The notes below the pieces were generated by a model. The model did not search any database and had not been told where the DNA came from. It was given only the letters and a program-made list of their open reading frames with translations. The translations under genes were made by a program, and so were the position numbers. Positions 4,279-27,730 of a stretch of 27,730 bases of DNA are shown here, piece after piece. The stretch comes from a virus. The stretch covers positions 1 to 27,730 of IMG/VR virus record IMGVR_UViG_3300037153_000518, one strand, 5' to 3'. How positions within the stretch are numbered: position 1 is the first letter of the stretch; each line of letters opens with the position of its first letter.

Positions 4279-5148
4279 TCACAAAAGCCACCTGTTTGAG
4301 TAGCTGGCCCCGATCGTGCAGCCGGTCGCGGTGCCGCTGGCCGGCGTCAGGGTCGCCGACATGGCGTTGACCTGGCCGGCGGGACCGTAGAGCAGGGGGA
4401 AGCCGGAGCCCACGACGTCGTACCCCTTGCCGGCCGCGTCCGTGACCTGCATGGCGTCGGTGTCGATCGTGATCGTCCAGGCCGTGCTCGCCGCCAGGTT
4501 GCCCGGAAACGCGATCGTCAGCGTCTCGCCCTTGGTCGTGTTGGACAGCGAGAACGAGGAGATCGGGGCCGCGTTCGTGTTCGGGATCGTCAGCGTCCAG
4601 ACGGGCTTGGTCCAGACCGAGCCGGCGTAGGCGACGTTGAAGGTCGACGCCGAGCCGCTGGCCAGCCCCTGGGGAGAGAGCGTGGTCGCGGCGATGTCGA
4701 GGAAGTACGGGATCGGGCAGAACAGCTCGAGGTCGAAGGCGTGATAGAACGGCGGGAAGCTCTTGACCCAGACCTTGTTCTTGAGCCCGCTGAACTCGGC
4801 CAGGATGTAGGTTGAGCCGTCGAACGAGAGGCGCTGCTGCCCGGCCTGCTCGAGCAGCCCGACCTGGGCGCCGAAGGACGCTGACGGCGACGCGCTGGCC
4901 TCGAGATAGCGCATGGGCAGCGTCAGGACCCTCGCCTTGCGGTCCCGGCCGAGGACGACGGAGGCGGCCCGCCAGGCGAGCTGCGCCGGCGTGAGCTGGA
5001 CGTGGTCGTCGTCGTACTTGAGCTGCTGCCACTGCCAGTTGGTGCCGTCGTTCAGGTTCATCGACCCGAACGCGCCCTGGCCGTTGGGCCAGTTGAGGCC
5101 GCCGAAGGTGCACGTCAGCGGCGTGCCGGTGATGATCGGCTGCGGCAC
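4279..5148 (-). CDS. Distal tail protein-like (Dit-like)
   Basis: A 289-residue protein starts at GTG 5148, which shares its G with the tape-measure stop (TAGTG). It begins MPQPIITGTPLTCTFGGLNW and has a beta-rich N-terminal half (WQWQQLKYDDDHVQLTPAQL, SGLKNKVWVKSF) and an FDLELFCPIPYFLDI segment resembling the end of the Dit N-terminal domain. A galectin- or Ig-like C-terminal half follows, with WTLTIPNT, TIAFPGNLAAST and WTITIDTDAMQVT strands. Position directly after the tape measure is the Dit position in siphoviruses. The same frame runs back unbroken into the tape-measure frame, so a naive caller reports a 1184-residue fusion. I regard that as an artefact of an apparent +1 break near 5400. 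Confidence 0.75.
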   Translation of the reverse strand: MPQPIITGTPLTCTFGGLNWPNGQGAFGSMNLNDGTNWQWQQLKYDDDHVQLTPAQLAWRAASVVLGRDRKARVLTLPMRYLEASASPSASFGAQVGLLEQAGQQRLSFDGSTYILAEFSGLKNKVWVKSFPPFYHAFDLELFCPIPYFLDIAATTLSPQGLASGSASTFNVAYAGSVWTKPVWTLTIPNTNAAPISSFSLSNTTKGETLTIAFPGNLAASTAWTITIDTDAMQVTDAAGKGYDVVGSGFPLLYGPAGQVNAMSATLTPASGTATGCTIGASYSNRWLL

Positions 5149-7833
5149 TACGTCAGCCCGTAGGCGCGGTTGCGAAAGCGCGGCGCCTGGAGGGCGTCGC
5201 GGATCTGCTGGAGGAGCATGTTCTGCTCCTGCAGGAGCTCGATGGTGCCGTCGTCCGCAGCGTAGCCGGCGCTCGGCACGGTGATCGGGCTGGCCGAGGT
5301 CGCCGAACTCGTGCCCGCGTAGCCGCTCCCGGTCATACCGCCGAGGGCGCCCGGCATCGACACCGCTCCAGCGAGCTGCGCGGCGGCCGACCGGGCCGAC
5401 ACCGGCCGCGAGCCCGCCCGCGTACATCCGGATGAAGTTGGGCGCCCACATGTCGGCCTCGGCGCCCGGCCCGAGACGAGTCGGCGAGTGGAAGCCGAGC
5501 CAGTCCGCGATCACGCCGCCGATCGAGCGCACCGCCTGCGCGATGGCGCCGGCCGCGGCGCCGATCCCCTTCCCGATGGCCTGGATGAGGTTGTAGCCCC
5601 AGCTGTAGGCTTCGCCGGCCCGATCGGCGAACCACCCGCCGAGGCCGCCGAAGATGCCCGTGATCGTGTTCCAGGCTTCGTGGACCTTCCCGCCGATCAC
5701 CGAGCTGACGCGACCCCACATGTCGCCAGCGGCCCCCGCGATCTGGTTCCATACCCCGCCCAGCCAGGTCGTAACGGCGTTCCAGACGGATTCGATGACC
5801 GCCTTGGCGTAGATCACGCGCTCCTCGATCGCCGTGCTGACCGTTCCCCAGACCGCCGTGGCCACGCCGGCAACCCACTTCCATCGATCCGACAGCCACG
5901 TCGTGATCGCGGTCCAGATGGCGATGGCGTCGTCGCGGGCCTTCTCGAAGGTCAGGCGGATCGAGTCCACGAGGAACTTGAAGTAGTAGTTGTGGTTGTA
6001 GAGCCAGGAGAAGAAGCCGACGACCCCGTTGACGAAGCCGGAGACGATCGCGATGGCTCCGTTGATGCCGGCCCGGAAGATGCCGGTGATCGCGTTCCAA
6101 GCGGCCGTCAGGATGCCGTGCACCATCGAGCCCAGCGCCGAGAAGGCTCCTCCGATCGCTTCGATCCCGTGGTGGACCTGGGTGCCGAGCCAGGAGAAGA
6201 GGTTGCCAGCATCCGTGACCGCCGCGTGCCACACGCTGCCCAGGAACGCCGTGATCTGCGACCAGTGCGTGTACAGCTCGTAGATCCCCACCGCCACGAT
6301 CGCGACGGCCGCCATGATCGCCAGCAGCGGCCAGGTCGCGGCGATGGTCGCGATGGCGGCGGCGGCCATGCTCACCGTGTAGGCGCCGATGGCGACCACC
6401 AACACGCTCCCGATGGCGACCGCCAGCGGGATGCTCACCTGCTGGTTCTTGCCCAGCCAGTCGACCAATCCCTCGATCGCTCCCATCGCCTGGATGACGT
6501 ACGGGATGAGCTTGGTCCCGAGCGCGATCGCTCCGGCCTCCAGCCCGTACTTCCACTTGTCGATGTGCTGGTTCAGGGTGCCCTGGATCGACGACCAGCC
6601 CGCGACGTGGTTCCCTGCCTCCGTGGTCGCCCCCGACACGGCCTTGATCGCCGTGTTGGTGTAGCCGGCGTTTTCGCCGGTGAGCATGAGGGCAGTGTTC
6701 AACGTCGTGCTGTCGCCCGTGGCGGCCTTGAGCGCACCAGCGTAGGTCTGCATGAGTTGCGCACCCGACTGCTGCGCCGAGCCGATCCCGTGGGTGGACG
6801 TCATGAGCGTGGCGAACTGGCGGGCCTGGCCGGCCTGCTCGACGTTGAGATCCTTGGTCGCCTTCGTGAAGTCGCCCATTGAGACGGACCCGTCGATGAC
6901 CGCGGCGCCCAGCTTCTGGACCTCCGGCGGGAGGCCCTTGAGCGCCGTCTGCATCTGGAGGATCACGGTCCCGCTGGAGCCCATGTCGGAGCGGATGCGG
7001 TCGGCGATCAGCTGCAGCGTCCCGGCCAGGCCCTTCGACCCCAGATCGTTGGACAGCTCGCGGGCGTTGAGGCCGAGCAGCGCCAGCTCCTTGTTCTGGG
7101 GCGCCGTGGTCGTCTGCAGGTGCTGGATGGTGTGGGCCAGGTTCTGCGTCGCCTGGTCGGCCGACATGCCGTGCACGGTCATGCTGGCCACGTCGGCGGT
7201 GATCTCGGCCAGGGAGAGGTGGGCGGCCGAGGAGATCGGGAGCACCGAGTGCAGGGAGCCGGTCAGCTCGGCGAAGGTGGTCTTGCCCTGGCTGACGGCC
7301 GAGATCAGCGTCGTGGTCACCTGCGCTGCCGCCGACGCCGGCTCGTGGTAGTCGATCATCGCCGAGGTCACGGCGTCCGTGACCACCTTCAGGTCCGCCC
7401 CCTCGGCCTTGGCGCCCTCGGCGGACGCCCGCACCACATCGAGGCCGCCCTTCGCGAAGGTGTAGCCGGCCGAGGACGCGACGTAGTAGGCGTTGGCGAG
7501 GTCCATCGCCGAGTCGCCGACCTGGCCGGCCATGTCGAGCAGCCCCTGGCGGACCTGGCCGATGGCGCCCTGCTGCTCGCCCGCCGACGTGACGAGGCGG
7601 TTGGTGGCCGTCTCGAAGTCCTTCGCCATCTTGACCGAGGCCACGCCGATGACGCCCACGGCCGCGGCGGTTCCGAACAGCGCCACCTTGCCGACGGCGG
7701 CCAGCCCGTTGAAGGCGGTCCCCATGCCCGTCGTCTCGGCCTTCGCGACCGCGCCGGCCTCGCCCATGCCGGCCATGAACTGGGTGGCGTTGAGCATCAG
7801 CGACGCCACCAGAGGAGGCAGGTAGTCGGCCAC
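5148..7833 (-). CDS. Tail tape measure protein, with apparent +1 frame break near 5400
   Basis: The start is GTG at 7833 behind GGGAG. The first 811 residues show the classic tape-measure plan: an N-terminal ASLMLNATQFMAGM segment, a hydrophobic helix near 50-66, long Ala/Gln-rich helical stretches, a hydrophobic cluster near 465-520 (IPLAVAIGSVLVVAIGAYTV and on), W-rich pseudo-repeats near 650-740, then DWLGFHSPTRLGPGAEADMW. After GGLAAG (codon ending at 5401) the frame becomes arginine-rich nonsense. Skipping one base restores a typical tape-measure end of about 83 residues (SARSAAAQLAGAVSMPGALG, then ELLQEQNMLLQQIRDAL) that stops with TAG at 5148-5150. The intended protein is therefore about 894 residues. 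It sets tail length and lies in the tail tube. The break is programmed, mutational or a sequencing error. Confidence 0.85.
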
Positions 7834-11511: not shown

Positions 11512-11626
11512 CGCTGAGCGGGGCAGGCCCTACACGGAGCCCCCATCGGCGCGCGTCCGCGCCCCCAACCTGACGGCCGCTGGCCTCCCTCGCGAGCCGT
11601 CTACCTCGGGCCTGCTCCGCTCAGCG
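11512..11626. repeat. 19-bp inverted repeat at the end of two convergent genes
   Basis: The left arm at 11512-11530 (CGCTGAGCGGGGCAGGCCC) is complementary to the right arm at 11608-11626 apart from one position, which can form a G-U pair in plus-strand RNA. The 77-base loop holds another hairpin at 11548-11563 (GGCGCG-CGTC-CGCGCC). The structure lies between the plus-strand zinc-ribbon stop and the minus-strand basic repeat gene, and its right arm overlaps the end of that gene. It may act as a two-way terminator although no U-tract is evident, or it may be a scar of insertion. Confidence 0.55.
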
Positions 11627-11867
11627 GCGGCGCTTCCGGCGCCCCTTCACGCCGCGGTGCGGGTGCTTGTGGCCGCGCATCCGGGCGCTGAGCTTGGCCC
11701 GCGCCGCCGCGGGCGGCGGCGCTGAGCGGCTTGTGCTTCATCGCCCGCATCCGCGCGGACAGCTTGGCGCGGGCCGCCGACGACATCGGCTTGCGCTTCA
11801 TGGCCTTCATGCGCGCCGAGAGCCGCGCCCGCGCCGCTGCGGACATGGGCCGGCGCTTGCGGGCCAT
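11621..11867 (-). CDS. Small basic repeat protein, NUMOD3-like repeats, frame broken
   Basis: ATG at 11867 lies four bases after the previous stop. The frame encodes about 20-residue repeats: RPMSAAARARLSARMKAM, KPMSSAARAKLSARMRAM, then KPLSAAARG. There the frame is lost. A +1 shift inside the GC hairpin at 11697-11714 restores ARAKLSARMRGHKHPHRGVK and a GRRKRRR end with TGA at 11621-11623. Unshifted, the frame runs as P/A-rich nonsense to TAG at 11601. The repeats resemble the NUMOD3 DNA-binding motif of homing nucleases (S-x-E-x-R-A-K-I-S-x-x-L/M-K), without a nuclease domain. The product is extremely basic, so DNA or RNA binding is likely but not shown. The break may be an extra 10-base insertion (or 1-base error). 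Confidence 0.6.
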
Positions 11868-11871
11868 CAGC

Positions 11872-12393
11872 TCACGCGGTGCCGCCGCTGATCCACTCCA
11901 GCGCCTCGAAGGTGACGACTGACCAGATCGCGACCTGGTTGTTGACCAGCTTGGGGAGGTCGGAGCGGACCCGGACGTCGGCGGCTTCCGTCGTGTTCCC
12001 CTCGGCCGCCATGAACAGCTGCTCAGGCTGGGTGGCCGTGCCGAGCTGCTTGTCGCTCTCCAGCCGCACGACGATCGCGTCGATGAGCTCGTCGTGGTCG
12101 TCCTGGGCCAGGTGGACGACGCTCTGGTTCGAGGCGAAACGGACGACGAGATCGACCGTGTAGTAGGCCATCTTGCCGCCCGGCGGCGCGCCCTGGAGCG
12201 TGACGCGGGTCCGGTGCTGGTCGGTGATGTAGGGAAAGCAGATCGCGCCCGAGGCAGTGCCGGCCGGCATCGAGTGGAAGAAGTCCGTCCCCGGCATCCA
12301 GCGCTCGGCACCCGTGTAGGTCGTGCCGAGCCCGGCCACGGCTGGTGGCGCGAACCACTGCGCGACCGCGTTCCGGACGAACTTGCGACCCAT
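11872..12393 (-). CDS. Tail terminator / tail completion-like protein
   Basis: ATG at 12393 overlaps the previous stop as ATGA. The 173-residue product begins MGRKFVRNAVAQWFAPPAVA and has a strand-rich middle (RTRVTLQGAPPGGKMAYYTV, DLVVRFASN) and a conserved HDELIDAIVVRLESDKQLGT helix. It ends AIWSVVTFEALEWISGG, which matches the pattern of small tail terminator or joining proteins in actinophages (final beta strand with W-x-x-V-F-E). Order after the connector and before the tube gene fits. Exact assignment as terminator is inferred. Confidence 0.65.
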   Translation of the reverse strand: MGRKFVRNAVAQWFAPPAVAGLGTTYTGAERWMPGTDFFHSMPAGTASGAICFPYITDQHRTRVTLQGAPPGGKMAYYTVDLVVRFASNQSVVHLAQDDHDELIDAIVVRLESDKQLGTATQPEQLFMAAEGNTTEAADVRVRSDLPKLVNNQVAIWSVVTFEALEWISGGTA

Positions 12394-18121: not shown

Positions 18122-20833
18122 TCAGACCTCCTGGCCCGGCAGTGGGCTGGGGTAGAGCGAGCACCTGCAGCGCGGGTGCTGAGGCGGGGCTGAGGCGCCG
18201 CCCGGGAAGCTGGCCGACAGCGGGATCACGCCGGCCGCCTCGTTCCGGGCGCAGATCGGGCACGGGTTGAACGTCATCCAGCCCTTGCCGCCGATCCCGT
18301 TGAAGGCGTACGTCTCCAGGCTGGCCGCCGAGGTCGCCCGCGCCAGCTCCGTCTGGGCGATGACCAGGGCGCGGTCGCCGTCGCCGAGGAGGTCGGCCAG
18401 GCCCCGGGCGATCGCGTCCACGGAGTCGCCACTGGACGCGCCCTGGGCCAGGATCTCGGCCAGGCGGTCCAGGGTCGTGTCGCTGATGCCCTGGATGACG
18501 ACGCCGGCCTCCTGCAGCAGCTCCGCGAGCCCAAGCGCCTGCTCGGCGGCGGCGGGGTTCCCGGGCGTCCAGGCCGACCAGTCGATGTCGGTGGCCGGAT
18601 CGCTGGATGACGCCGGGAGGCCGCCGCCCCGGAGCGCCGTCAGCGCGGCCCCGACGCCCAGCCGCCAGCCGTCCTGGTAGAGCGCCCGCAGGAGCGCCGC
18701 GAGCCCGTTGAGGTCGAGGTGCAGGCGACTGCGGAGGAACTCGGCGGCGAAGGTGCGGAGGTCGGCCGAGACGGTCGCGGCGCCGGCCTTGGCGACCGGC
18801 TGAGCGGCCAGCCAGGCGGCGGCGACGGCGTCCGGGTCCAGGGCCTCGGCGAAGAGGTCTCGGACCGCGTCCGCGTAGTGCTCCTCAGCGGCGAGGAGCT
18901 GCGGGTGGAGCGGCCTGTCCTCCAGCGCCTTGCGCAGGAAAGGGAAGCGGAAGGCCGCGTCCACCTCCTCGGCGCTCTGCGCCTTCTCCAGCCGCGTCCA
19001 GATCGCCGCGAGCTGCTCGCGCGGGACATCGACGCCTGCGGCCTGTGCCCACTCGCCGCGGAAGCGCCGCGGCTGGAGGCCCTGGTGGACCCGCTGCCCG
19101 GCGTTCAGCCGCCAGCGATCGAGGGCCTTGGCGACCCCGCCGCCCGCGCCGCCGAGGCCGCTCGCCGTGTCCTCCGACTGCTGGCCCGCGATCTGCGGTG
19201 CTGCTGGCGGCTGGACCGCGGCCTGGCGCTTCGAGCGCAGGTCCTCCTTCTGAGCGACCACGCCCGTCGGGGCCGTGTACTCGCCCGGCGTGAGGTCGGC
19301 GGCCGGCTCCACGCTGCCCGCCTCGGGGCCGGCGGTGTTGGGATCGATCGCCCCGGCGATCTCCTCGATGCTCTTGAGCGGGATGGCCCCGGCGCGCGGG
19401 CTGAACACGAAGCGCGGAACCGGGTGCTCGGGGTCGATCTCCTTGCCGAGGACGTCCTGGCGGACCTCGTCGGGGCTCTCCGCGCCCATGAACACGTATA
19501 GCTGGTGCGCCTGCGCCTCGGCGAGGCGGTCCTCCTTCTCTCCCCCGGTGTCGAACTCGAAGTCCACGTCGGCGAGGCCGAGGTCTTCGTTCGTGACCCG
19601 GGTGGCGATGCCCGTCGCCCACTTCAGGATCGGCTGCGTGCCGATGCGAAACTGGACGTCCACCTGGGTCTCGCCGGTGCTCCGGTTGACGTCCTGGACG
19701 ATGCCGAGGTCGTGGGGGGTGATCCCGAACGCCGACGCCGTCTTCCGGGTGAGGTAGATCGGGAACTTCTCGTCGAAGACCTTCTGCGGATGGAACATCG
19801 GCTTGGAGCCGGCGGGGATCCACTTCACCTTGTGGAGCTGGGATTGGTCGCCCTCCATGACCACGTCCCACGCGGCCTGGAACTTGACGATCTCCTCGGG
19901 GTCCGACTGGTCGGGGGGCGCCTCCATGAACGTGTCCGGCAGGGCGCCCTCCGTGAACGCCTGCAGGAAGTGCCACTGGAAGCGGAGGTCCGTGTTGCCC
20001 GTCAGCAGCAGCCACTCCATCGGGGGCAGCCCGTACGGCGACTCCGGCAGCGGCATGAAGGGCTCGTAGATGACCGACGACTCCGTGAGCCAGAGCGCCG
20101 GGACGCCCGCCACGAACTGGACGTAGGCGGGGGCCTCGCCGTAGGGCCGGCGGCCGTAGTAGTCGAGCAGGGGCGCGATGGTCGGCCCAGCGACCGGGTC
20201 CAGGGCGCCGAGCTGGCCTCCGCGCGTCCGACTCCGGTAGATAACCGGCGCGTCGAAGCGCAGCATGTCCTCCAGCAGGAGCGCCAGCCACGAGTCGAAG
20301 TAGTGGGTCCGGTCCGGCCGCGACCAGAACTTGCGCGCCGCGGCGATCTGGTCGGAGACGTCGTCCTCGACGCCCTCCTTGGGCACGATCCGCCAGTCGA
20401 AGGAGCGGACGTCGCGCTTGATGTGGTCGATGCAGAGCCGGGAGACGTCCCAGGCGTCGATGATCGCCTTCAGGGTGTCGAAGCTCGGCCGGCCGCGCTC
20501 GTTGGCACGGGGCCGGGCGCCGACGTTGTAGCCGGCGGGGAAGTCGTGCTTCCGCGGCGGCATCCCCTGCGGAAAGAACTGCTGGATCGGCCGGCCGGGC
20601 GAGAAGGCACCGCCCGTCTGCATCCCCTGCTCGCGCAGCGCCTGCTCCTGGGCGGGCGACGGCGTGGACAGGCCGAAGCCCGTCAGACCGGAGTTGCCCG
20701 TGGAGAGGCCGACCATCGACGCCGACGAGCCCAGGTTCTGGGTCGCCGAGATCAGGCGGCCGGCGTCGGGCGCGGGGGCCGCCTTCCGGAGCTCGCCCCA
20801 GGCGGCCCGAGCCGCGTTCGAGAGGCGGCCCAC
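18122..20833 (-). CDS. Portal protein fused to MuF head morphogenesis domain
   Basis: GTG at 20833 abuts the terminase TAA. Residues about 100-490 are portal-like: NERGRPSFDTLKAIIDAWDV, CIDHIKRDVRSFDWRIVPKE, a clip/wing region (VQFVAGVPALWLTESSVIYE), GLPPMEWLLLTGNTDLRFQW and the crown-side helix ITPHDLGIVQDVNRSTGETQ. A linker rich in P, A and G follows. The last 82 residues form a MuF-type domain: ALVIAQTELARATSAASLET, KGWMTFNPCPIC (C858, C861), then QHPRCRC (H886, C889, C891), likely metal binding. At 903 residues it is about twice a normal portal, consistent with the fusion. It forms the DNA entry ring, and the MuF part would sit in the head interior or act in assembly. Confidence 0.9.
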   Translation of the reverse strand: MGRLSNAARAAWGELRKAAPAPDAGRLISATQNLGSSASMVGLSTGNSGLTGFGLSTPSPAQEQALREQGMQTGGAFSPGRPIQQFFPQGMPPRKHDFPAGYNVGARPRANERGRPSFDTLKAIIDAWDVSRLCIDHIKRDVRSFDWRIVPKEGVEDDVSDQIAAARKFWSRPDRTHYFDSWLALLLEDMLRFDAPVIYRSRTRGGQLGALDPVAGPTIAPLLDYYGRRPYGEAPAYVQFVAGVPALWLTESSVIYEPFMPLPESPYGLPPMEWLLLTGNTDLRFQWHFLQAFTEGALPDTFMEAPPDQSDPEEIVKFQAAWDVVMEGDQSQLHKVKWIPAGSKPMFHPQKVFDEKFPIYLTRKTASAFGITPHDLGIVQDVNRSTGETQVDVQFRIGTQPILKWATGIATRVTNEDLGLADVDFEFDTGGEKEDRLAEAQAHQLYVFMGAESPDEVRQDVLGKEIDPEHPVPRFVFSPRAGAIPLKSIEEIAGAIDPNTAGPEAGSVEPAADLTPGEYTAPTGVVAQKEDLRSKRQAAVQPPAAPQIAGQQSEDTASGLGGAGGGVAKALDRWRLNAGQRVHQGLQPRRFRGEWAQAAGVDVPREQLAAIWTRLEKAQSAEEVDAAFRFPFLRKALEDRPLHPQLLAAEEHYADAVRDLFAEALDPDAVAAAWLAAQPVAKAGAATVSADLRTFAAEFLRSRLHLDLNGLAALLRALYQDGWRLGVGAALTALRGGGLPASSSDPATDIDWSAWTPGNPAAAEQALGLAELLQEAGVVIQGISDTTLDRLAEILAQGASSGDSVDAIARGLADLLGDGDRALVIAQTELARATSAASLETYAFNGIGGKGWMTFNPCPICARNEAAGVIPLSASFPGGASAPPQHPRCRCSLYPSPLPGQEV

Positions 20834-22333
20834 TTACGCGGCGTGCCCGTCGGTGGTCGTGGTCCGTGCAGCGGCCATCTGTCGCCACGCCTCCTCGAAA
20901 GCCGCTCCCCGGCCGCTGCCCGTGTGGTACGCGAGCAGCAGCGCGTCGGCGTCGTCGGGCGAGCGCCCCAGCCGCTCGCGAGTCTCGTCCTTGGGCTCGA
21001 CCTTGACGCGGCCCGAGGCGTCGAGCGCGTACTTCGGCGCGAGGAGCTGGGCGACCGTGCCGTCGTCCACCTCGGAGAGGTCCCAGCCGCCGGTCATCGA
21101 CAGCTCACGACCCACCTCCCACCAGAGTTGGTCGCGCAGGCGCGGGAAGCGCTTGGGCCTCGTGCTCGCCTCGCCCACGTTGACCGGCACGATGACCGCC
21201 TTGTGGTGGCCCTCTGAGCGCAGCGAGCGGAGGTGGCCGACGACGCCCCAGCCCCAGCCGATGACGTCCACCTTCACGCGGGTCGCGCCCGTCTCCGCGA
21301 TGGCCTGCATGACGAGCCCGACGACCTCCTCGGAGCGCCGGGAGCGGTTGCGCCAGACCCGGGCCGCCCGGACGCCGCGCCGCTCGCGCACAACCGTCTG
21401 GTCGCCGCCGGCACCAACGTCGACGCCGAGCTCGACGGGCACGAGGTCGGCGGCGGGCAGCTCCTCGCGGGCAATCCTGCAGCGGGCGGCAGCCGAGGCC
21501 GGCACGACGCCGTCGTCGGCGTCCTCGGGGAAGACGCCGCGCACCTTGGACAGGTAGAGCGGCGACTGCTCCCCCCACTCGTGCGCCTTCTCGGCCACCC
21601 AGGTCGGGGAGACGAGCATCGGCAGGAGCCAGTCGGGGACCAGCTCGCCGGTGAACGCCGGGGTGTCCTCGGCCCCGATGTGGATCACGTGCCAGCCGGA
21701 GCCGGGCTTGCAGACCTCGGCGAAGTGGCTCGCCGGATCGTCGGGGTTGCCGATCGCGAGGATGCGGCTGTCCTCGTTGGTGGTGAGCGTCGAGGCCGCG
21801 TCCCACAGCGCCTTCGGGATGCCGCCGGCCTCGTCGAGCACGACCAGCACCCAGCGCGCGTGGATGCCCTGGAAGGCGGTCGGGTCCTGGTCGGCCGGCT
21901 TGCGCCCGAAGCCGATCAGCTCGTTGCCGAGCAGCCATTCCGTCTGGTTCACCCGGCCCGGCAGCGCGCCGTCGGCCTTCTTGAACGCCCGCTGGATCTC
22001 GCGCCAGAGGATGCCGCGCACCTGGGCGAAGGTCGGTGCCGAGGTGACCGCGAACGCCTCTCCGGGCGGGTGGCGGCCGAGGTGCGAGCACACGACCCGC
22101 GAGGCCAGGAAGGACTTGCCCGCGTCGTGGCAGGAGTGGACCGCCACGCGCCGGTGGGCGTCCAGGGCCTCGCAGACCTCTCGCTGCTTCGACCACAGGA
22201 ACTCGCCGAGGACGTCGGTGATGTAGGCACGCGTGTCGTGGAGGGGAACGGGAGGGTCGAGGAGGTCGGCCGCGACCGCGAACGGGCTACGCGGCCCCGT
22301 CGAGCGCCCGGAGGTGGCGAGACGCGACTGCAT
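20834..22333 (-). CDS. terL: Terminase large subunit
   Basis: This 499-residue packaging motor has Walker A SCHDAGKS at 67-74, Walker B VLVVLDEAG at 162-170, and a coupling motif ILAIGNP at 191-197. The RNase H-like nuclease shows acidic residues in ELGVDVGAGGDQT (D305), TRVKVDVIGWGWGV (D356) and SPDDADALLLAYH (D460-D463). ATG at 22333 follows GAGG. The gene overlaps the small subunit by 47 bases, more than the other junctions, so a later start is possible, though the N-terminal residues look family-like. It binds portal and cuts and pumps DNA. Confidence 0.95.
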   Translation of the reverse strand: MQSRLATSGRSTGPRSPFAVAADLLDPPVPLHDTRAYITDVLGEFLWSKQREVCEALDAHRRVAVHSCHDAGKSFLASRVVCSHLGRHPPGEAFAVTSAPTFAQVRGILWREIQRAFKKADGALPGRVNQTEWLLGNELIGFGRKPADQDPTAFQGIHARWVLVVLDEAGGIPKALWDAASTLTTNEDSRILAIGNPDDPASHFAEVCKPGSGWHVIHIGAEDTPAFTGELVPDWLLPMLVSPTWVAEKAHEWGEQSPLYLSKVRGVFPEDADDGVVPASAAARCRIAREELPAADLVPVELGVDVGAGGDQTVVRERRGVRAARVWRNRSRRSEEVVGLVMQAIAETGATRVKVDVIGWGWGVVGHLRSLRSEGHHKAVIVPVNVGEASTRPKRFPRLRDQLWWEVGRELSMTGGWDLSEVDDGTVAQLLAPKYALDASGRVKVEPKDETRERLGRSPDDADALLLAYHTGSGRGAAFEEAWRQMAAARTTTTDGHAA

Positions 22334-22934
22334 GGCCTACCTCGCGCTGGCGGGCGCTGAGGGCCAGCTCCGGGTCCTCCAGCAGCCGCCGGATCACGTC
22401 CGCGAGCAGCGCCCCCTGGCGCTCGGCCAGCCGGACCCGCCGCTCCTCGATGCCGATCTTGATGGCCGTGGCGCAGACATCGACGAGGTGCTTGCGCTCC
22501 TCGCGGTAGAGCACGACCCACACGTTCGGCGCCGCCCGCTGCGTCGTGTCGGTGCCGGGGAACTCGGAGGAGCCCTTCTCGACCTCCTCGGCCCGGCCCC
22601 ACACGATCTCCTCGGGCGACAGCTCGCGCACCCGCTGCTCCAGCCAGGCGACGTGCCCGGCCGTGCGACAGACCTCCTCCAGCAGCGCGTCGGCGGGGTC
22701 GATGTCGCGGGGGAGCCCGTACGTCACCACGGCCAGGCGGGCCTCCTCGGCTGCGAGCCGTCTCTCGGCCGCGGCGCGTACCTGGGGGGCGCCGCCGCCG
22801 TGCATGTCGCAGACCTCGGCTCCGCGCACCGGCCGATTGCGGCACGGGAGTCCGTCGCGACGATGGCCGAGGCAGCGCTCGTGCGTCTGGCCGCACTGCG
22901 TGCATGGGGTACCGCGGGGGGATCGGCGGCGCAT
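22287..22934 (-). CDS. terS: Terminase small subunit-like, with zinc-binding N-terminus
   Basis: The 215-residue protein precedes the large subunit. The first 50 residues carry C11-x2-C14, C21-x2-H24, C31 and C42-x2-H45 in the pattern seen in actinophage small terminases (CTQCGQTHERCLGHRRDGLP, CRNRPVRGAEVCDMHGGGAP, then QVRAAAERRLA). The rest is helical, with LLEEVCRTAGHVAWLEQRVREL and a C-terminal ALLADVIRRLLEDPELALSA segment. It would recognise phage DNA and regulate cutting. Start is ATG 22934, a few bases after the previous stop. Confidence 0.8.
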   Translation of the reverse strand: MRRRSPRGTPCTQCGQTHERCLGHRRDGLPCRNRPVRGAEVCDMHGGGAPQVRAAAERRLAAEEARLAVVTYGLPRDIDPADALLEEVCRTAGHVAWLEQRVRELSPEEIVWGRAEEVEKGSSEFPGTDTTQRAAPNVWVVLYREERKHLVDVCATAIKIGIEERRVRLAERQGALLADVIRRLLEDPELALSARQREVGHAVASRHLRALDGAA

Positions 22935-22938
22935 CGGG

Positions 22939-23313
22939 TCAGGTCCGGACCGGATCGACTACGAACGAGCCGACCTCGATGGACTGCACCGGGTCGCCGT
23001 CGGGAGCCTGCCACTGGTACTGCCACACGCCCGGCAGCGCGGTCGTGTCGAGGTCGGCCTCGAACAGGCCGAGGCTCACACCCTGGGTGGTCGCCGAGCG
23101 GACGATGGGCGCCGGCGGGGCCGAGGGCGACCCGCTGGCGCTGTGCCGCACGCCGTCCGGGGTGAACCAGAGCAGCGTGATCGTGGAGGGGTCGGCGGGG
23201 TGGCCGTTGCGGTCCTTGAAGCCGTCCGTCAGGACGCCCTGCGGGTTGACGTACCAGGTGGCCACGGTGACGAGCGCTCCCGCGTTGTACGGGCCCTGCG
23301 TGGTGACGCTCAT
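22939..23313 (-). CDS. Small Ig-like beta-sandwich phage protein, 124 residues
   Basis: ATG at 23313 directly abuts the TAG of the repeat-protein gene (TAGATG). The protein shows the beta-sandwich pattern of many small phage proteins: YNAGALVTVATWYVNPQGVL, DPSTITLLWFTPDG, LGLFEADLDTTALPGVWQYQ, then a QSIEVGSFVVDP end. Similar proteins occur next to terminase and tail genes of actinophages, often unnamed. It may decorate the virion or partner with the RY-repeat protein just upstream. Confidence 0.65.
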   Translation of the reverse strand: MSVTTQGPYNAGALVTVATWYVNPQGVLTDGFKDRNGHPADPSTITLLWFTPDGVRHSASGSPSAPPAPIVRSATTQGVSLGLFEADLDTTALPGVWQYQWQAPDGDPVQSIEVGSFVVDPVRT

Positions 23314-24762
23314 CTACGGCTCCCGGTCGTGCGCCCCGACGGTGGAGGCGAGGCGGTCATGGGCGCCGACCACGGCCAGCAGCCAGTCGTGGGCGCCGAC
23401 GGTCCCGCCGGGCGCGACCGACAGGCGCAGCACGTAGCGACCCCGGGCGTTGCGGAGGCCCCGGCCCGTCAGTAGATAGCGGCCCGCGACGTTGCGCCAG
23501 GTCGCCACCCGGACCCCGTAGCGGGCCTGGACGTTCCGGAGGCTGCGGACGACCGCGCCGTACCGCGCCGCCGCGTTGCGCCAGGCGCCGGCCGTCAGCC
23601 GGTAGCGCAGCTGGGCGTTCCGCCAGGCTCGCCCGACGGCGACGTACCGCGCCTGGATCTGCCGGAACGCGAGCCCGGGAGCGAGGATGCCGTAACGGGC
23701 CTGGGCGTTCCTGAATGCTCGTGCCGTGAGGCGGTAGCGGGCCTGCAGGTTCTGCAGGCCGCGCGCCACGAGTGCGTACCGCACCGCGGCGTTCCGCCAG
23801 CCGGTCGCCACGACCCGGTAGCGGCCCTGGGCCTGCCGCCACGCCTGGACGGCGATCTTGTACCTGGCCTGGACGTTCCGCCACGCGGCGCCGGAGACGG
23901 TCAGCCGGTAGCGAGCCTGGACGTTCCGGAGCCCGGTCGCGAGCAGGCGATAGCGACCCTGGACGTTCCTGGCCGCGCCGACGACCAGCGAGTACCTGAG
24001 TTGGACCTGACGGAACGACCGGGCGACCAGGCCGTACCGAGCCTGGCTGTTGCGCCAGGACCGCGCGATGACCGGGTACCGGAGCTGGACATTCCGGAGT
24101 CCGCGTACGGCGAGCACGTAGCGCGCCGCCGTGTTTCGCCACGCCCGAGCGACCAGGGCATAGCGCGCCTGAGCCTGACGGAATGCCTGGACCGTGAGCG
24201 AGTAGCGAGCCTGGGCCTGACGCCACGCCCGCACCACCAGGGCGTAGCGGCCCTGAGCGTTCCTCCAGCTCCGGGCGATGACGACGTAGCGGGCCTGCGC
24301 GTTGCGGAAGCCCTGGACAGCCAGGGCGTACCGGCCCTGGACCTGACGCCAGGCCCGAGCGATGACCGTGTAGCGAGCCTGGGCGTTCTTCAGACCCCGG
24401 ACGGCGACCCCGTACCTCGCCTGCGCGTTGCGCCAGGCGGTGGCCACCAGGGCATACCGGGCCTGAGCGTTGCGAAGCCCACGGGCGACCAGCCGGTACC
24501 GGCCCTGAGCATTGCGGAGGCCGGCGACCACGAGTTGGTAGCGGGCCTGGACGTTCCGCCACGAGAGCGCCACCAGAACGTAGCGGAGCTGCGCGTTCCG
24601 GAATGACCGGGCGACGAGGGCGTACCGCGCCTGAGCGTTCCGCCAGCCCTGGACGATGAGCGGGTACCGGGCCTGCGCGTTGCGCCAGGCAGTCGACAGG
24701 GCCAGGAGCCGGGTGCCGAGCAGGGATGGGCGTTTGGGCTGGCCGCGGCCGAAACGCGCCAT
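23314..24762 (-). CDS. RY-repeat protein: thirty 14-residue repeats without acidic residues
   Basis: This 482-residue protein has a 25-residue basic leader (MARFGRGQPKRPSLLGTRLL, then ALSTA), thirty tandem repeats (residues 26-449) and a 33-residue end with three VGAHD units. Repeat consensus is [W/L/F]-R-N-A/V-Q-A-R-Y-x-L-V-A-R-[S/G/A]. R7-Y8 is present in all thirty copies. Only repeats 19 and 24 are longer, by two residues. I see no Asp, Glu, Cys, His or Met inside the repeats and about three Arg per unit. Polarity alternates over RYALVAR (beta-like), yet 14 also equals two heptads. The start is ATG right after TAG. Context with fibre-like genes suggests a surface or tether role. I know no family with certainty. 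Confidence 0.85.
   Translation of the reverse strand: MARFGRGQPKRPSLLGTRLLALSTAWRNAQARYPLIVQGWRNAQARYALVARSFRNAQLRYVLVALSWRNVQARYQLVVAGLRNAQGRYRLVARGLRNAQARYALVATAWRNAQARYGVAVRGLKNAQARYTVIARAWRQVQGRYALAVQGFRNAQARYVVIARSWRNAQGRYALVVRAWRQAQARYSLTVQAFRQAQARYALVARAWRNTAARYVLAVRGLRNVQLRYPVIARSWRNSQARYGLVARSFRQVQLRYSLVVGAARNVQGRYRLLATGLRNVQARYRLTVSGAAWRNVQARYKIAVQAWRQAQGRYRVVATGWRNAAVRYALVARGLQNLQARYRLTARAFRNAQARYGILAPGLAFRQIQARYVAVGRAWRNAQLRYRLTAGAWRNAAARYGAVVRSLRNVQARYGVRVATWRNVAGRYLLTGRGLRNARGRYVLRLSVAPGGTVGAHDWLLAVVGAHDRLASTVGAHDREP
23416..24687 (-). repeat. Coding tandem array, 42-bp period, 30 units
   Basis: This array encodes residues 26-449 of the RY-repeat protein. The repeated codons differ a lot at third positions between units, so the array is conserved as protein rather than as recent DNA copies. 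The most conserved stretch is the codons for RNAQARY. Confidence 0.9.
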
Positions 24763-26469
24763 CTACATGAGGCTCCCGCTCAGCGGCCGGGGTTGGCTCC
24801 AGGGCTGCGTGCTGGGCGGCACCGAGATCAGGTACCGGCAGCCGGCGTTCCGCCACCCGGCCGTCGGGACAGTGATCGCGTACCGGGCCTGGGCGTTCTT
24901 CAGGCCCGGGCTGGACAACGTCAGGGCGGCCACGTTGACGGCGTAGGGCGCGCTGCTGTTCGCCGTCCAGGCCACCCCGATCATGGAGTTGCCGTAGGTG
25001 GCGGTCAGGAAGTCCTTGGCCTCGGTGCTCGTGCTGAGCGTGGACCACGAGCTCGCCCAGCCGCCGCCGGACGTCCACTTGAGGTACCGGATCGAGTGGC
25101 TGGCGTCGGTGTCCAGGACGAAGGCCCAGACCGATGTCCCGTCGGATACGAGGGGGACGCCACTGCCCGCCTGCTGCCCGGTCAGGCCGGTGCTCGGCAG
25201 CGTGACCTTCGCGCCCCAGGAGCCACCGTGACCCGAGTAGCGCACGTGTTCGAGGACGGTCCCGGAGTTGCGCCTGACGACGTGGACGTCGGTGTCCGAG
25301 ACGCGGCAGATACCCCAGTCGTTGGGGTGGTTGTGGGCGCTGGAGAGGTTGGGGACCGCGGCCCCGGCAGTGGTCGAGGTCGGCCACTGCGTCGCCGACG
25401 CGGACTCCGCGAAGCGCAGGCCGGCGTTGTACGTATTCCCCCCGCTCGGCGTGGTCCCGTTCTCGTCGCCGAAGCAGTAGACGGCGAGCATGAAGCCCGA
25501 CGCCAGGGGCACGACCGCGCTCTGCCAGGGCGCGCCGGTGACGGCGTTGTCGAAGCTCGTCGGCTTGACGCCGCCGTTGTTCCCGGCCCAGCTCGGGTCC
25601 TGGTTGGCGGTGCCGTTGTCGACCACGCCGCTGGCGTAGCCGCTGACCGGCTGGAAGTTCTCCTCGTTGACCCACCACCAGCGGTTGGTCGAGCTGAGGC
25701 CGATGCTGAGGGCCTGGGGGAAGTCGGGAGCGTCCTCGACGCCCGGGGCGGTGTCGTTCCAGCCGCTCCCGCCGCCTCCGGAGTGGACGTTGGCGTCCCA
25801 GGTGATCGTGGTCGCGGCCGTGAGTCGGGCGCGCTCGGTCGTGTGGATGTAGTGGCTGTCCTGCTGGGTCAGCAGGTGCACCACGTCGACGGAGCTGATG
25901 CTGCCGTAGCCGACCGCGAGCAGGCGGCCGTCCACCGGAAACTCGCCGTACCCGCCGGGGTTGTTCTTGCCCCCGGCCAGGTTGATGCCGAGGCCCAGCG
26001 AGGTCCCGTCAGCGATCGACGGCGAGGGGGAGCCGGTCGCCTCCGACCAGGTCGCCGTGGTCAGGTCGGCGCTGCTGCTGACGTAGGCCCGGACCCTGGT
26101 CGCCTCGATGATCTCGTAGGTCGAGCCGGCGGCCAGTGCGGTCCCGAGCCAGCTCCCGGTGGCGCCGTTGTCGATGACCGGGAGCACAGTCGACGTGTTG
26201 TTGCCGATCGTGAACGCCTGGCCGGAGCCCGTGCCGCCCGTGATGATGCAGGCGTAGCCGAGGTACTGGCCGGCGGTCCAGGTCTTGCCGGTGTCGGCGA
26301 GCTGCGACTTGGACCCGCTCGTGGCCGTGCCGCTGTCGACCTTGCCGACGTAGGTGAAGAACCACCATCGGCCGGTGTTCGCGGCGTAGACGAGGTGGCC
26401 CTGAGCGATGCCCCCCGTCGCGCCCTTGATGGCCCCCAGCGTCGAGGAGCTGACGATGGTGGCGGTCAC
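24763..26469 (-). CDS. Beta-rich surface/fibre protein ending in two RY repeats
   Basis: GTG at 26469 follows GAGGA and the previous TAG. The 568 residues are G/S/T/W-rich. Residues about 42-125 hold a module common in phage fibre proteins (GTATSGSKSQLADTGKTWTA, then GSGQAFTIGNNTSTVLPV and GSTYEII). Residues about 380-520 look like beta-propeller blades (DTDVHVVRRNSG, VSDGTSVWAFVLDTDASHSI, RYLKWTSGGGWASSWSTL). The C-terminus has LKNAQARYAITVPTAG and WRNAGCRYLISVPP, two units of the 14-residue repeat of the next gene, then a P/S tail. Receptor binding or fibre is inferred; no enzyme motif is assigned. It is a paralogue of the partial protein at 26942-27730. Confidence 0.7.
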   Translation of the reverse strand: MTATIVSSSTLGAIKGATGGIAQGHLVYAANTGRWWFFTYVGKVDSGTATSGSKSQLADTGKTWTAGQYLGYACIITGGTGSGQAFTIGNNTSTVLPVIDNGATGSWLGTALAAGSTYEIIEATRVRAYVSSSADLTTATWSEATGSPSPSIADGTSLGLGINLAGGKNNPGGYGEFPVDGRLLAVGYGSISSVDVVHLLTQQDSHYIHTTERARLTAATTITWDANVHSGGGGSGWNDTAPGVEDAPDFPQALSIGLSSTNRWWWVNEENFQPVSGYASGVVDNGTANQDPSWAGNNGGVKPTSFDNAVTGAPWQSAVVPLASGFMLAVYCFGDENGTTPSGGNTYNAGLRFAESASATQWPTSTTAGAAVPNLSSAHNHPNDWGICRVSDTDVHVVRRNSGTVLEHVRYSGHGGSWGAKVTLPSTGLTGQQAGSGVPLVSDGTSVWAFVLDTDASHSIRYLKWTSGGGWASSWSTLSTSTEAKDFLTATYGNSMIGVAWTANSSAPYAVNVAALTLSSPGLKNAQARYAITVPTAGWRNAGCRYLISVPPSTQPWSQPRPLSGSLM

Positions 26470-26941: not shown

Positions 26942-27730
26942 CTACCAGAGCGAGGCCCGGCTGATGGCCTGCCGGGCGTAGAGCAGCGGAACCGGCGGCG
27001 GCGCGGCGGCCGTCAGGCTGACGACCCCCGAAACCAGGCTGGTGCTCTGGTGCCACAGGACCACGATCTGGTTGTTGCCCACGTCGCGAGCGCAGGAGAT
27101 GAACGTCCTGGTCTGCGTCGAGGACTCCAGCGTCGTCCAGGCTCCGTCCCACGACGCGCCCGCCGACGACCACTTGATGTACTGGACCGAGTTGGCCGCG
27201 TCGGAGCCGATCGCGAACAGCCAGACGTTGGTCCCGTCCGTCGCGAGCGCCGTGCCCGTGCCCGAGGCGGTCGAGAACGCCGGGATGCTCTGGCCCGCGC
27301 CCCAGCTGGTGCCGTTCCAGCGGCGGTGGACCCAGGACCCGGTGCTCGAGCGGTAGACCACGTGTACGTCGCTCGTGGTCCGCGCCACGCAGCCCCAGGC
27401 GTTCTTGTCGACCGCCGTCACGGCGCCGGTGACCGACGTGTTGCCGCCGGTGCCGCTCCAGGACGTCCCGTTGTACGTGTAGAAGCTGAGGCCCGTCCAG
27501 GTCGAGGCCGCGGTCCCGTTGTCGGCGATCAACGCCATGTTCCCGGCTGTCGCGGTGGGGAAGAGGTAACCGGACTTCACGACCGACGCCTGGCTGTTGT
27601 CGATCACCGCCGACGTGGCCCATGTCGGTGCGGTCGCCTGCTCGCCGGTGCCCGGGTCTGCGGTGGAGCGCGTCCACGACGTGTCCTGGTTGGTGTCGAG
27701 CGCGCCGTTGGTCAGGTAGACCCGGTTGTT
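26942..27730 (-). CDS. Partial beta-propeller-like surface protein, 5' end outside window
   Basis: The frame is open from the window edge to TAG at 26942, giving 262 visible residues; an internal GTG at 27607 is not needed as a start. Visible blades: VYLTNGALDTNQDTSWTRST, DVHVVYRSSTGSWVHRRWNG, TALATDGTNVWLFAIGSDAA, then NSVQYIKWSSAGASWDGAWT. These align well with the C-terminal half of the protein at 24763-26469 (VHVV-R, SDGT-VW-F, SIRYLKW-S), showing paralogy. The end (PPPVPLLYARQAISRASLW) lacks clear RY repeats although LLYARQAISR is weakly similar. Likely virion surface protein. Confidence 0.65.
   Translation of the reverse strand, partial: NNRVYLTNGALDTNQDTSWTRSTADPGTGEQATAPTWATSAVIDNSQASVVKSGYLFPTATAGNMALIADNGTAASTWTGLSFYTYNGTSWSGTGGNTSVTGAVTAVDKNAWGCVARTTSDVHVVYRSSTGSWVHRRWNGTSWGAGQSIPAFSTASGTGTALATDGTNVWLFAIGSDAANSVQYIKWSSAGASWDGAWTTLESSTQTRTFISCARDVGNNQIVVLWHQSTSLVSGVVSLTAAAPPPVPLLYARQAISRASLW

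Follow-up and report, generated by a model that had tools for sequence, protein, structure and literature searches.

The window analysed here, a stretch of 27,730 nucleotides that constitutes a single 27.7-kb IMG/VR record and may be a fragment, carries on its minus strand a gene for a 482-residue protein (P0001, here the RY protein) composed of 14-residue repeats marked by 30 RY dipeptides. The features of this locus, in the order in which the minus strand reads, are as follows.

24763 to 26469, minus strand: upstream gene (P0002), 568 residues; a proposed adhesin, propeller-like by eye, with no family match
24820 to 24906, minus strand: two repeat units at the C terminus of the upstream protein (GLKNAQARYAITVPTAGWRNAGCRYLISV), both with Asn at position 11
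24773 to 24777, minus strand: GGGAG, a possible ribosome-binding site 10 nt upstream of the ATG of the RY gene
23314 to 24762, minus strand: RY-repeat gene, 482 residues, with 30 RY units and coding-type codon-position GC; proposed fibre shaft or 'rope' protein
24688 to 24762, minus strand: N-terminal segment of the RY protein, MARFGRGQPKRPSLLGTRLLALSTA, of low predicted confidence
23413 to 24687, minus strand: repeat array proper (residues 26–450), as defined by column statistics and the predicted strand in each unit
23317 to 23397, minus strand: C-terminal tail past the array, with three VGAHD motifs and the sole acidic residues of the RY protein
23320 to 23324, minus strand: GGGAG, a possible ribosome-binding site 6 nt upstream of the ATG of the next gene
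22939 to 23313, minus strand: small downstream protein of 124 residues, a homologue of the small domain fused to a related array (L106); proposed fibre-to-virion adaptor
20834 to 22934, minus strand: terminase small- and large-subunit genes, lying after 22939–23313

The plus-strand frame across 23314–24762 is interrupted by stops, and the gene is read from the minus strand, where the thirty 14-residue units and the coordinates reported in an earlier reading of the letters alone (the sequence-only reading) were both found to be correct. Codon-position GC (0.74/0.55/0.90) is of coding type and resembles that of the neighbouring genes. The ATG lies immediately after the TAG of the upstream gene, and the TAG of the RY gene directly abuts the ATG of 22939–23313. 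Successive RY dipeptides are separated by 14 residues in 27 cases and by 16 in two, with the 30th unit incomplete, and the array follows the consensus RY-x-L-V-[AV]-R-[AGS]-[WLF]-R-N-[AV]-Q-A. Composition shuffles (n = 2,000) gave at most 13 RY dipeptides and a longest 14-spaced chain of 3, compared with 30 and 19 in the RY protein, which places the pattern far from chance. The protein contains 18% Arg, with a net charge of +87 and a computed pI of 12.0. Residues 1–458 are entirely without Asp or Glu, so that the acid-free stretch, put at about 424 residues in the sequence-only reading, is in fact longer; acidic residues occur only at positions 459, 469, 479, and 481, and the longest such run in any other protein of the window is 82.

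Comparison of the units with one another revealed a mean identity of 0.60 for DNA and 0.51 for protein, with adjacent units no more similar than units far apart. From codon usage, units that agree in a residue should also agree in its codon in 56.2% of pairs; the observed figure is 55.4%, indicating that synonymous sites are saturated and that selection acts on the protein. Protein-level selection had already been proposed from the DNA divergence of the units, and the synonymous sites are indeed as diverged as independent draws. The array is old and maintained by selection at the protein level, and is not recently amplified DNA.

Protein searches for relatives of the RY protein yielded nothing useful. 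Relatives were located by scanning viral contigs with a degenerate DNA pattern covering three or four consecutive units, which identified six (L046, L055, L056, L103, L106, and L108) with the repeat R-[FY]-x-L-x-V-R-x-[YFW]-K-D-x-x-T. The core-family consensus is R-[FY]-x-[LIV]-x-[VA]-R-x-[YFW]-[KR]-D-x-x-[TA], and the pattern that also includes the RY protein is R-[FY]-x-L-x-V-R-x-[YFW]-K/R-D/N-x-x-x. A profile made from the arrays of K-D type (L046, L055, L056, L103, and L108), with the window gene held out, scored 249.9 bits against the RY array. As any 14-residue repeat may score against a 14-residue profile, a control was run in which the 14 columns of the array were permuted identically across all units, and the best of 300 permuted versions reached 38.6 bits. 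Over all fetched ORFs the window gene scored 395.6 bits and unrelated periodic frames no more than about 60. Judged by these sequence scores, the RY protein belongs to a phage protein family built of a 14-residue repeat. The remark in the sequence-only reading that no named family matches holds, as the Pfam, PHROGs, and NCBIfam libraries contain no model covering the RY protein or the core repeat, and nothing relevant was found in the literature on a 14-residue phage repeat. No close relative of the window phage with the array was found in IMG/VR, so the conservation of the RY gene itself could not be traced, and the genes around related terminases (L005–L042) include no such array.

Other periodic proteins were considered and set aside. 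The wider period-14 arrays (L043, L044, L045/L048/L050, L047, L052, and L057) did not score clearly above column-permuted controls, and L051, which lay outside that control, was withdrawn from the family. The C-terminal arrays of Aeromonas Casjensviridae tail proteins (PYGLxAGYLPDLVx) share with the RY protein a 14-residue period and Tyr-x-Leu, and belong to a virion tail protein, but as homologues they scored like the column-permuted controls. A match to Escherichia phage PhiR12_3 is a coincidence arising from a 7-residue WSLVAGR repeat; the 41 stretches from a scan of GTDB genomes looked low-complexity or wrong-frame, with no credible array among them; and weak matches in PHROGs and Pfam (DUF481 for L043; phrog_22698 and phrog_25070 for the RY protein) were judged to be effects of periodicity. 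One of the rejected arrays, L044:1829-6106 (plus strand), is a 1426-residue protein with many 14-residue DSTGSYSxNL units; genes for an HNH endonuclease and a portal-like protein lie downstream of it, and its homology to the RY repeat is unsupported.

The arrays from IMG/VR (L046/L054/L109, L055, L056, L103, L106, and L108) share with the RY protein the period, the R-[FY]-x-L-x-V core, an aromatic residue at position 9, a basic residue at position 10, high positive charge, and a small downstream neighbour. They differ in having Asp at position 11 and in being usually fused to an N-terminal region, whereas the RY array has Asn or Gln there and is a separate gene. Position 11 is Asp in 26/31 units of L046, 21/23 of L055, 17/21 of L056, 21/26 of L103, and 14/16 of L108; before the 30 RY sites of the window gene it is Asn in 24 and Gln in 6, and never Asp. 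The K-D motif is therefore usual in the core family, not defining, and absent from the RY protein, where the change to Asn or Gln explains most of the lack of acidic residues in its array. Among the arrays compared, the acid-free state is a property of the window phage, a variant, and not of the repeat. All core-family arrays are strongly basic, at +1.1 to +2.7 per 14 residues, a range of more than twofold, and the RY protein is the most basic member seen of this unnamed family. Unit lengths in the core family are 12, 14, or 16 residues, with some of 15, and the change is located at positions 7–10.

In the relatives, the array forms the C-terminal part of a protein, behind a large N-terminal region (L103, 1011 residues; L046, 849; L108, 491; L056, 703), and the regions joined to the arrays are beta-rich. 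Just ahead of the array in L103 is a segment, GVFGGLLLALSSLLVPGS, to which the N-terminal segment of the RY protein is similar by eye. L046 and L056 each have a further, distinct gene upstream that ends in a few units, as does the upstream gene of the window, where the two units fall within the last 50 residues. A small adaptor-type gene, its product probably Ig-like, follows the relatives' arrays at once, or is fused to them. The gene after the L103 array matches PF23148, 'Podophage GP4 fiber-tail adaptor protein gp77' (E = 1.4e-24), and also the GP4 chain 8jou D (E = 2e-5). The L106 array is joined in frame to a homologue of the 124-residue window protein (BLASTP, 39% over 38 residues, E about 2e-4, a short match), and the order that follows there, small protein, TerS, TerL, and portal, is like that of the window, TerL and portal being assigned in L106 by position and eye only. 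The corresponding order in the window is array, 124-residue protein, TerS, TerL, and a portal-MuF fusion; this last gene (18122–20833, minus strand) encodes a portal with a C-terminal minor-head (MuF-like) domain. The arrays of L046, L109, and L106 lie in clusters with terminase, portal, MuF-like, or capsid genes. The RY protein had been thought unusual for a phage structural gene, a view that the relatives do not support: their arrays lie among virion genes, joined to beta-rich domains and beside fibre-tail adaptor-type proteins.

This context bears on whether the RY protein could be a protamine-like polycation, internal to the head or associated with packaging, that neutralises DNA and is encoded beside the terminase. 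Its 18% Arg, 458 acid-free residues, and net charge of +87 would suit such a role, as would its position one gene before the terminase small subunit. However, the related arrays are fused to large beta-rich regions and adjoin a fibre-tail adaptor, most of their units keep Asp, and the RY array, unlike protamines, has many ordered positions with aromatic or beta-branched residues; a DNA-neutralising role is consequently judged improbable. A further possibility is that ribosomes read through the TAG between the upstream and RY genes, or that this TAG is an assembly error, yielding an adhesin-array fusion of approximately 1050 residues like L103. The two ORFs share a frame, the TAG alone standing between the last sense codon and the ATG, and the relatives are fusions. 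The GGGAG preceding the ATG, the same TAG-ATG layout at the next gene boundary, and an upstream protein that already ends in its own two units and a Pro-rich tail argue for separate genes, and readthrough is given little weight.

The upstream gene is paralogous to the right-end gene of the window (26942–27730, minus strand; 36% identity over 143 residues), which is without repeat units, so that these are confined to the one of the two adhesin-like homologues that adjoins the array. A gene for 153 residues sits between the two paralogues. Searches for relatives of the upstream protein produced no useful one, the single weak match (28%) having no array. The 124-residue downstream product has no match in Pfam or PHROGs, PF23148 (Gp77) included, and probably adopts an Ig-like fold.

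AlphaFold was run on eight units with a 22-row repeat alignment and on the full-length RY protein with 10 rows, alignments that included arrays which later failed the homology control. The 8-unit model had a mean pLDDT of 65 and a pTM of 0.52, and the full-length model a mean pLDDT of 67 (70–79 in the better half, below 50 for residues 465–482) and a pTM of 0.63. Both models are all-beta with no helix and have one strand of approximately 12 residues per unit. The solved fold nearest to the 8-unit model is the SufB/SufD beta-helix (Z 8.9, r.m.s. deviation 2.3 Å over 118 residues), and that nearest to the full-length model is curli CsgA (Z 33.1), where an r.m.s. deviation of 9.1 Å over 355 residues means agreement in general arrangement only; tailspikes came next, with CBA120 TSP3 in second place (Z 15.7, 4.2 Å over 308 residues). 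A search of BFVD gave no confident full-length match. The predictions point, with moderate confidence, to a flat, curli-like solenoid with two units per coil. Like the RY model, CsgA has a strand-turn-strand coil and Asn/Gln positions that would stack, but its coil is of about 22 residues, whereas the RY protein, with a modelled coil of 28, is Arg-rich and phage-encoded. The curli repeat has the consensus S-x5-Q-x-G-x-G-N-x-A-x3-Q, and on inspection none of the RY units fits it. The authors of a study on phage LSH1 warn that poor beta-helix models beside phage adhesins may be artefacts (PMC13243795).

The sequence-only reading had left open a beta solenoid or meander and an extended helix, and had proposed structure predictions of the full protein and of 5-repeat pieces; those described above, both of moderate confidence, favour the former. 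A two-heptad coiled-coil rod (14 = 2 × 7) would be consistent with the mostly nonpolar positions 9, 12, 2, and 5, spaced 3-4-3-4. With no helix in either AlphaFold run, Pro and Gly at positions 3 and 7, Gly, Ser, or Ala at position 8, beta-branched residues at positions 4–6, and unit lengths that mostly shift by two residues and so break the heptads, a helical rod is very hard to sustain.

Collectively, these data make it reasonably probable, if far from certain, that the product of the RY gene forms the repetitive shaft, or 'rope', of an external fibre of the phage particle, a tail-side fibre being the best reading. Each unit would form one beta-strand and two units one coil of a flat beta-solenoid, so that 30 units would stack into a rod of some 15 coils, with a length of roughly 7 nm at 0.48 nm per coil, or would make a far longer rope if the array is extended. 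The C-terminal side of the array would attach to the virion via the adaptor candidate encoded at 22939–23313, and the adhesin-like upstream protein would dock by its two C-terminal units, which would supply further strands at an end or edge of the array. The positive surface might, more tentatively, help to retain the fibre on the acidic adhesins or on anionic host-surface polymers. In a more elaborate and rather doubtful form of this arrangement, the C-terminal units of the upstream protein would insert as extra strands of the shaft solenoid, and the change from Asp to Asn or Gln at position 11 would have spread across all 30 + 2 units because of homotypic stacking in one continuous and wholly positive ladder, amounting to modular fibre assembly by repeat complementation.

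A different role for the charge would be that the array is itself the adhesin, with a multivalent grip on anionic host polymers such as teichoic acids, capsule, or LPS. All core-family arrays are strongly basic (+1.1 to +2.7 per unit) and most other virion proteins of the window are acidic, in agreement with such a role. The argument is nevertheless one from charge, which varies more than twofold across the family, and the neighbouring domains look like specific binders, so that adhesion by the array itself seems unlikely. Binding of nucleic acid or glycans by the array is possible, since the high positive charge is common to the core family.

Several known fibre modules are comparable to the fibre arrangement preferred here. 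Fibre I of Ralstonia podophage GP4 reportedly contains an elongated rope protein. Its module (gp77, fibril 8JOU_g, and adhesin) resembles the window in placing a repetitive or fibril protein beside an Ig-like adaptor and an adhesin, and its adaptor family is common to L103, whereas the adaptor candidate of the window has no Gp77 match. Searches of the RY array against PDB chains (phmmer and profile searches) gave no sequence match. In phage LSH1, gp34-gp35-gp36 are interpreted as an adhesin, a fibril, and an attachment protein with an Ig fold, with the fibril matching GP4 chain 8JOU_g, a three-gene set comparable to the module in the window (PMC13243795). BcepIL02 gp56 (Lessievirus) and the Gordonia phage proteins Phendrix 92 and Vasanti 28 are likewise repetitive, of probable beta structure, and directly beside a Gp77-like gene, but their repeats have periods near 20 or 24 and do not match the 14-residue profile. 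The repetitive Gp77 neighbours of BcepIL02 and BcepMigl gave no match to the GP4 PDB chains. In Gordonia phages, the minor tail proteins at L113:6295-8364 and L114:6291-7790, beside Gp77-like genes, consist of repeats of approximately 24 residues (AVRNVxxSGxxAxGTGxAPAGTV), a further repeat of fibre type with no Pfam match.

On the preferred reading, the RY protein is of a known kind, the repetitive phage fibre protein, and what is new is a variant within a previously unnamed repeat family. The analysis defines this unlisted phage family by a clear consensus and ties it to a fibre-adaptor gene. As an extreme and simple member, with 30 near-ideal units and one residue class missing, the RY protein is suited to structural work, and it may be relevant to repetitive stretches that flank phage adhesins and model poorly, as described for LSH1 (PMC13243795). 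If it is a stackable acid-free solenoid, ideas on charge ladders and fibre design could usefully be tested on it.

Two further observations were made elsewhere in the window. The tape-measure ORF at 4279–7833 (minus strand) seems to cross an out-of-frame Arg-rich stretch into a second, Dit-like domain, a possible frameshift or assembly error. At 11601–12311 (minus strand), a tandem 60-bp repeat gives rise to a Lys/Arg-rich repeat (KRRPMSAAARARLSARMKAMKRKPMSSAARAKLSARM) close to where the ORF ends.
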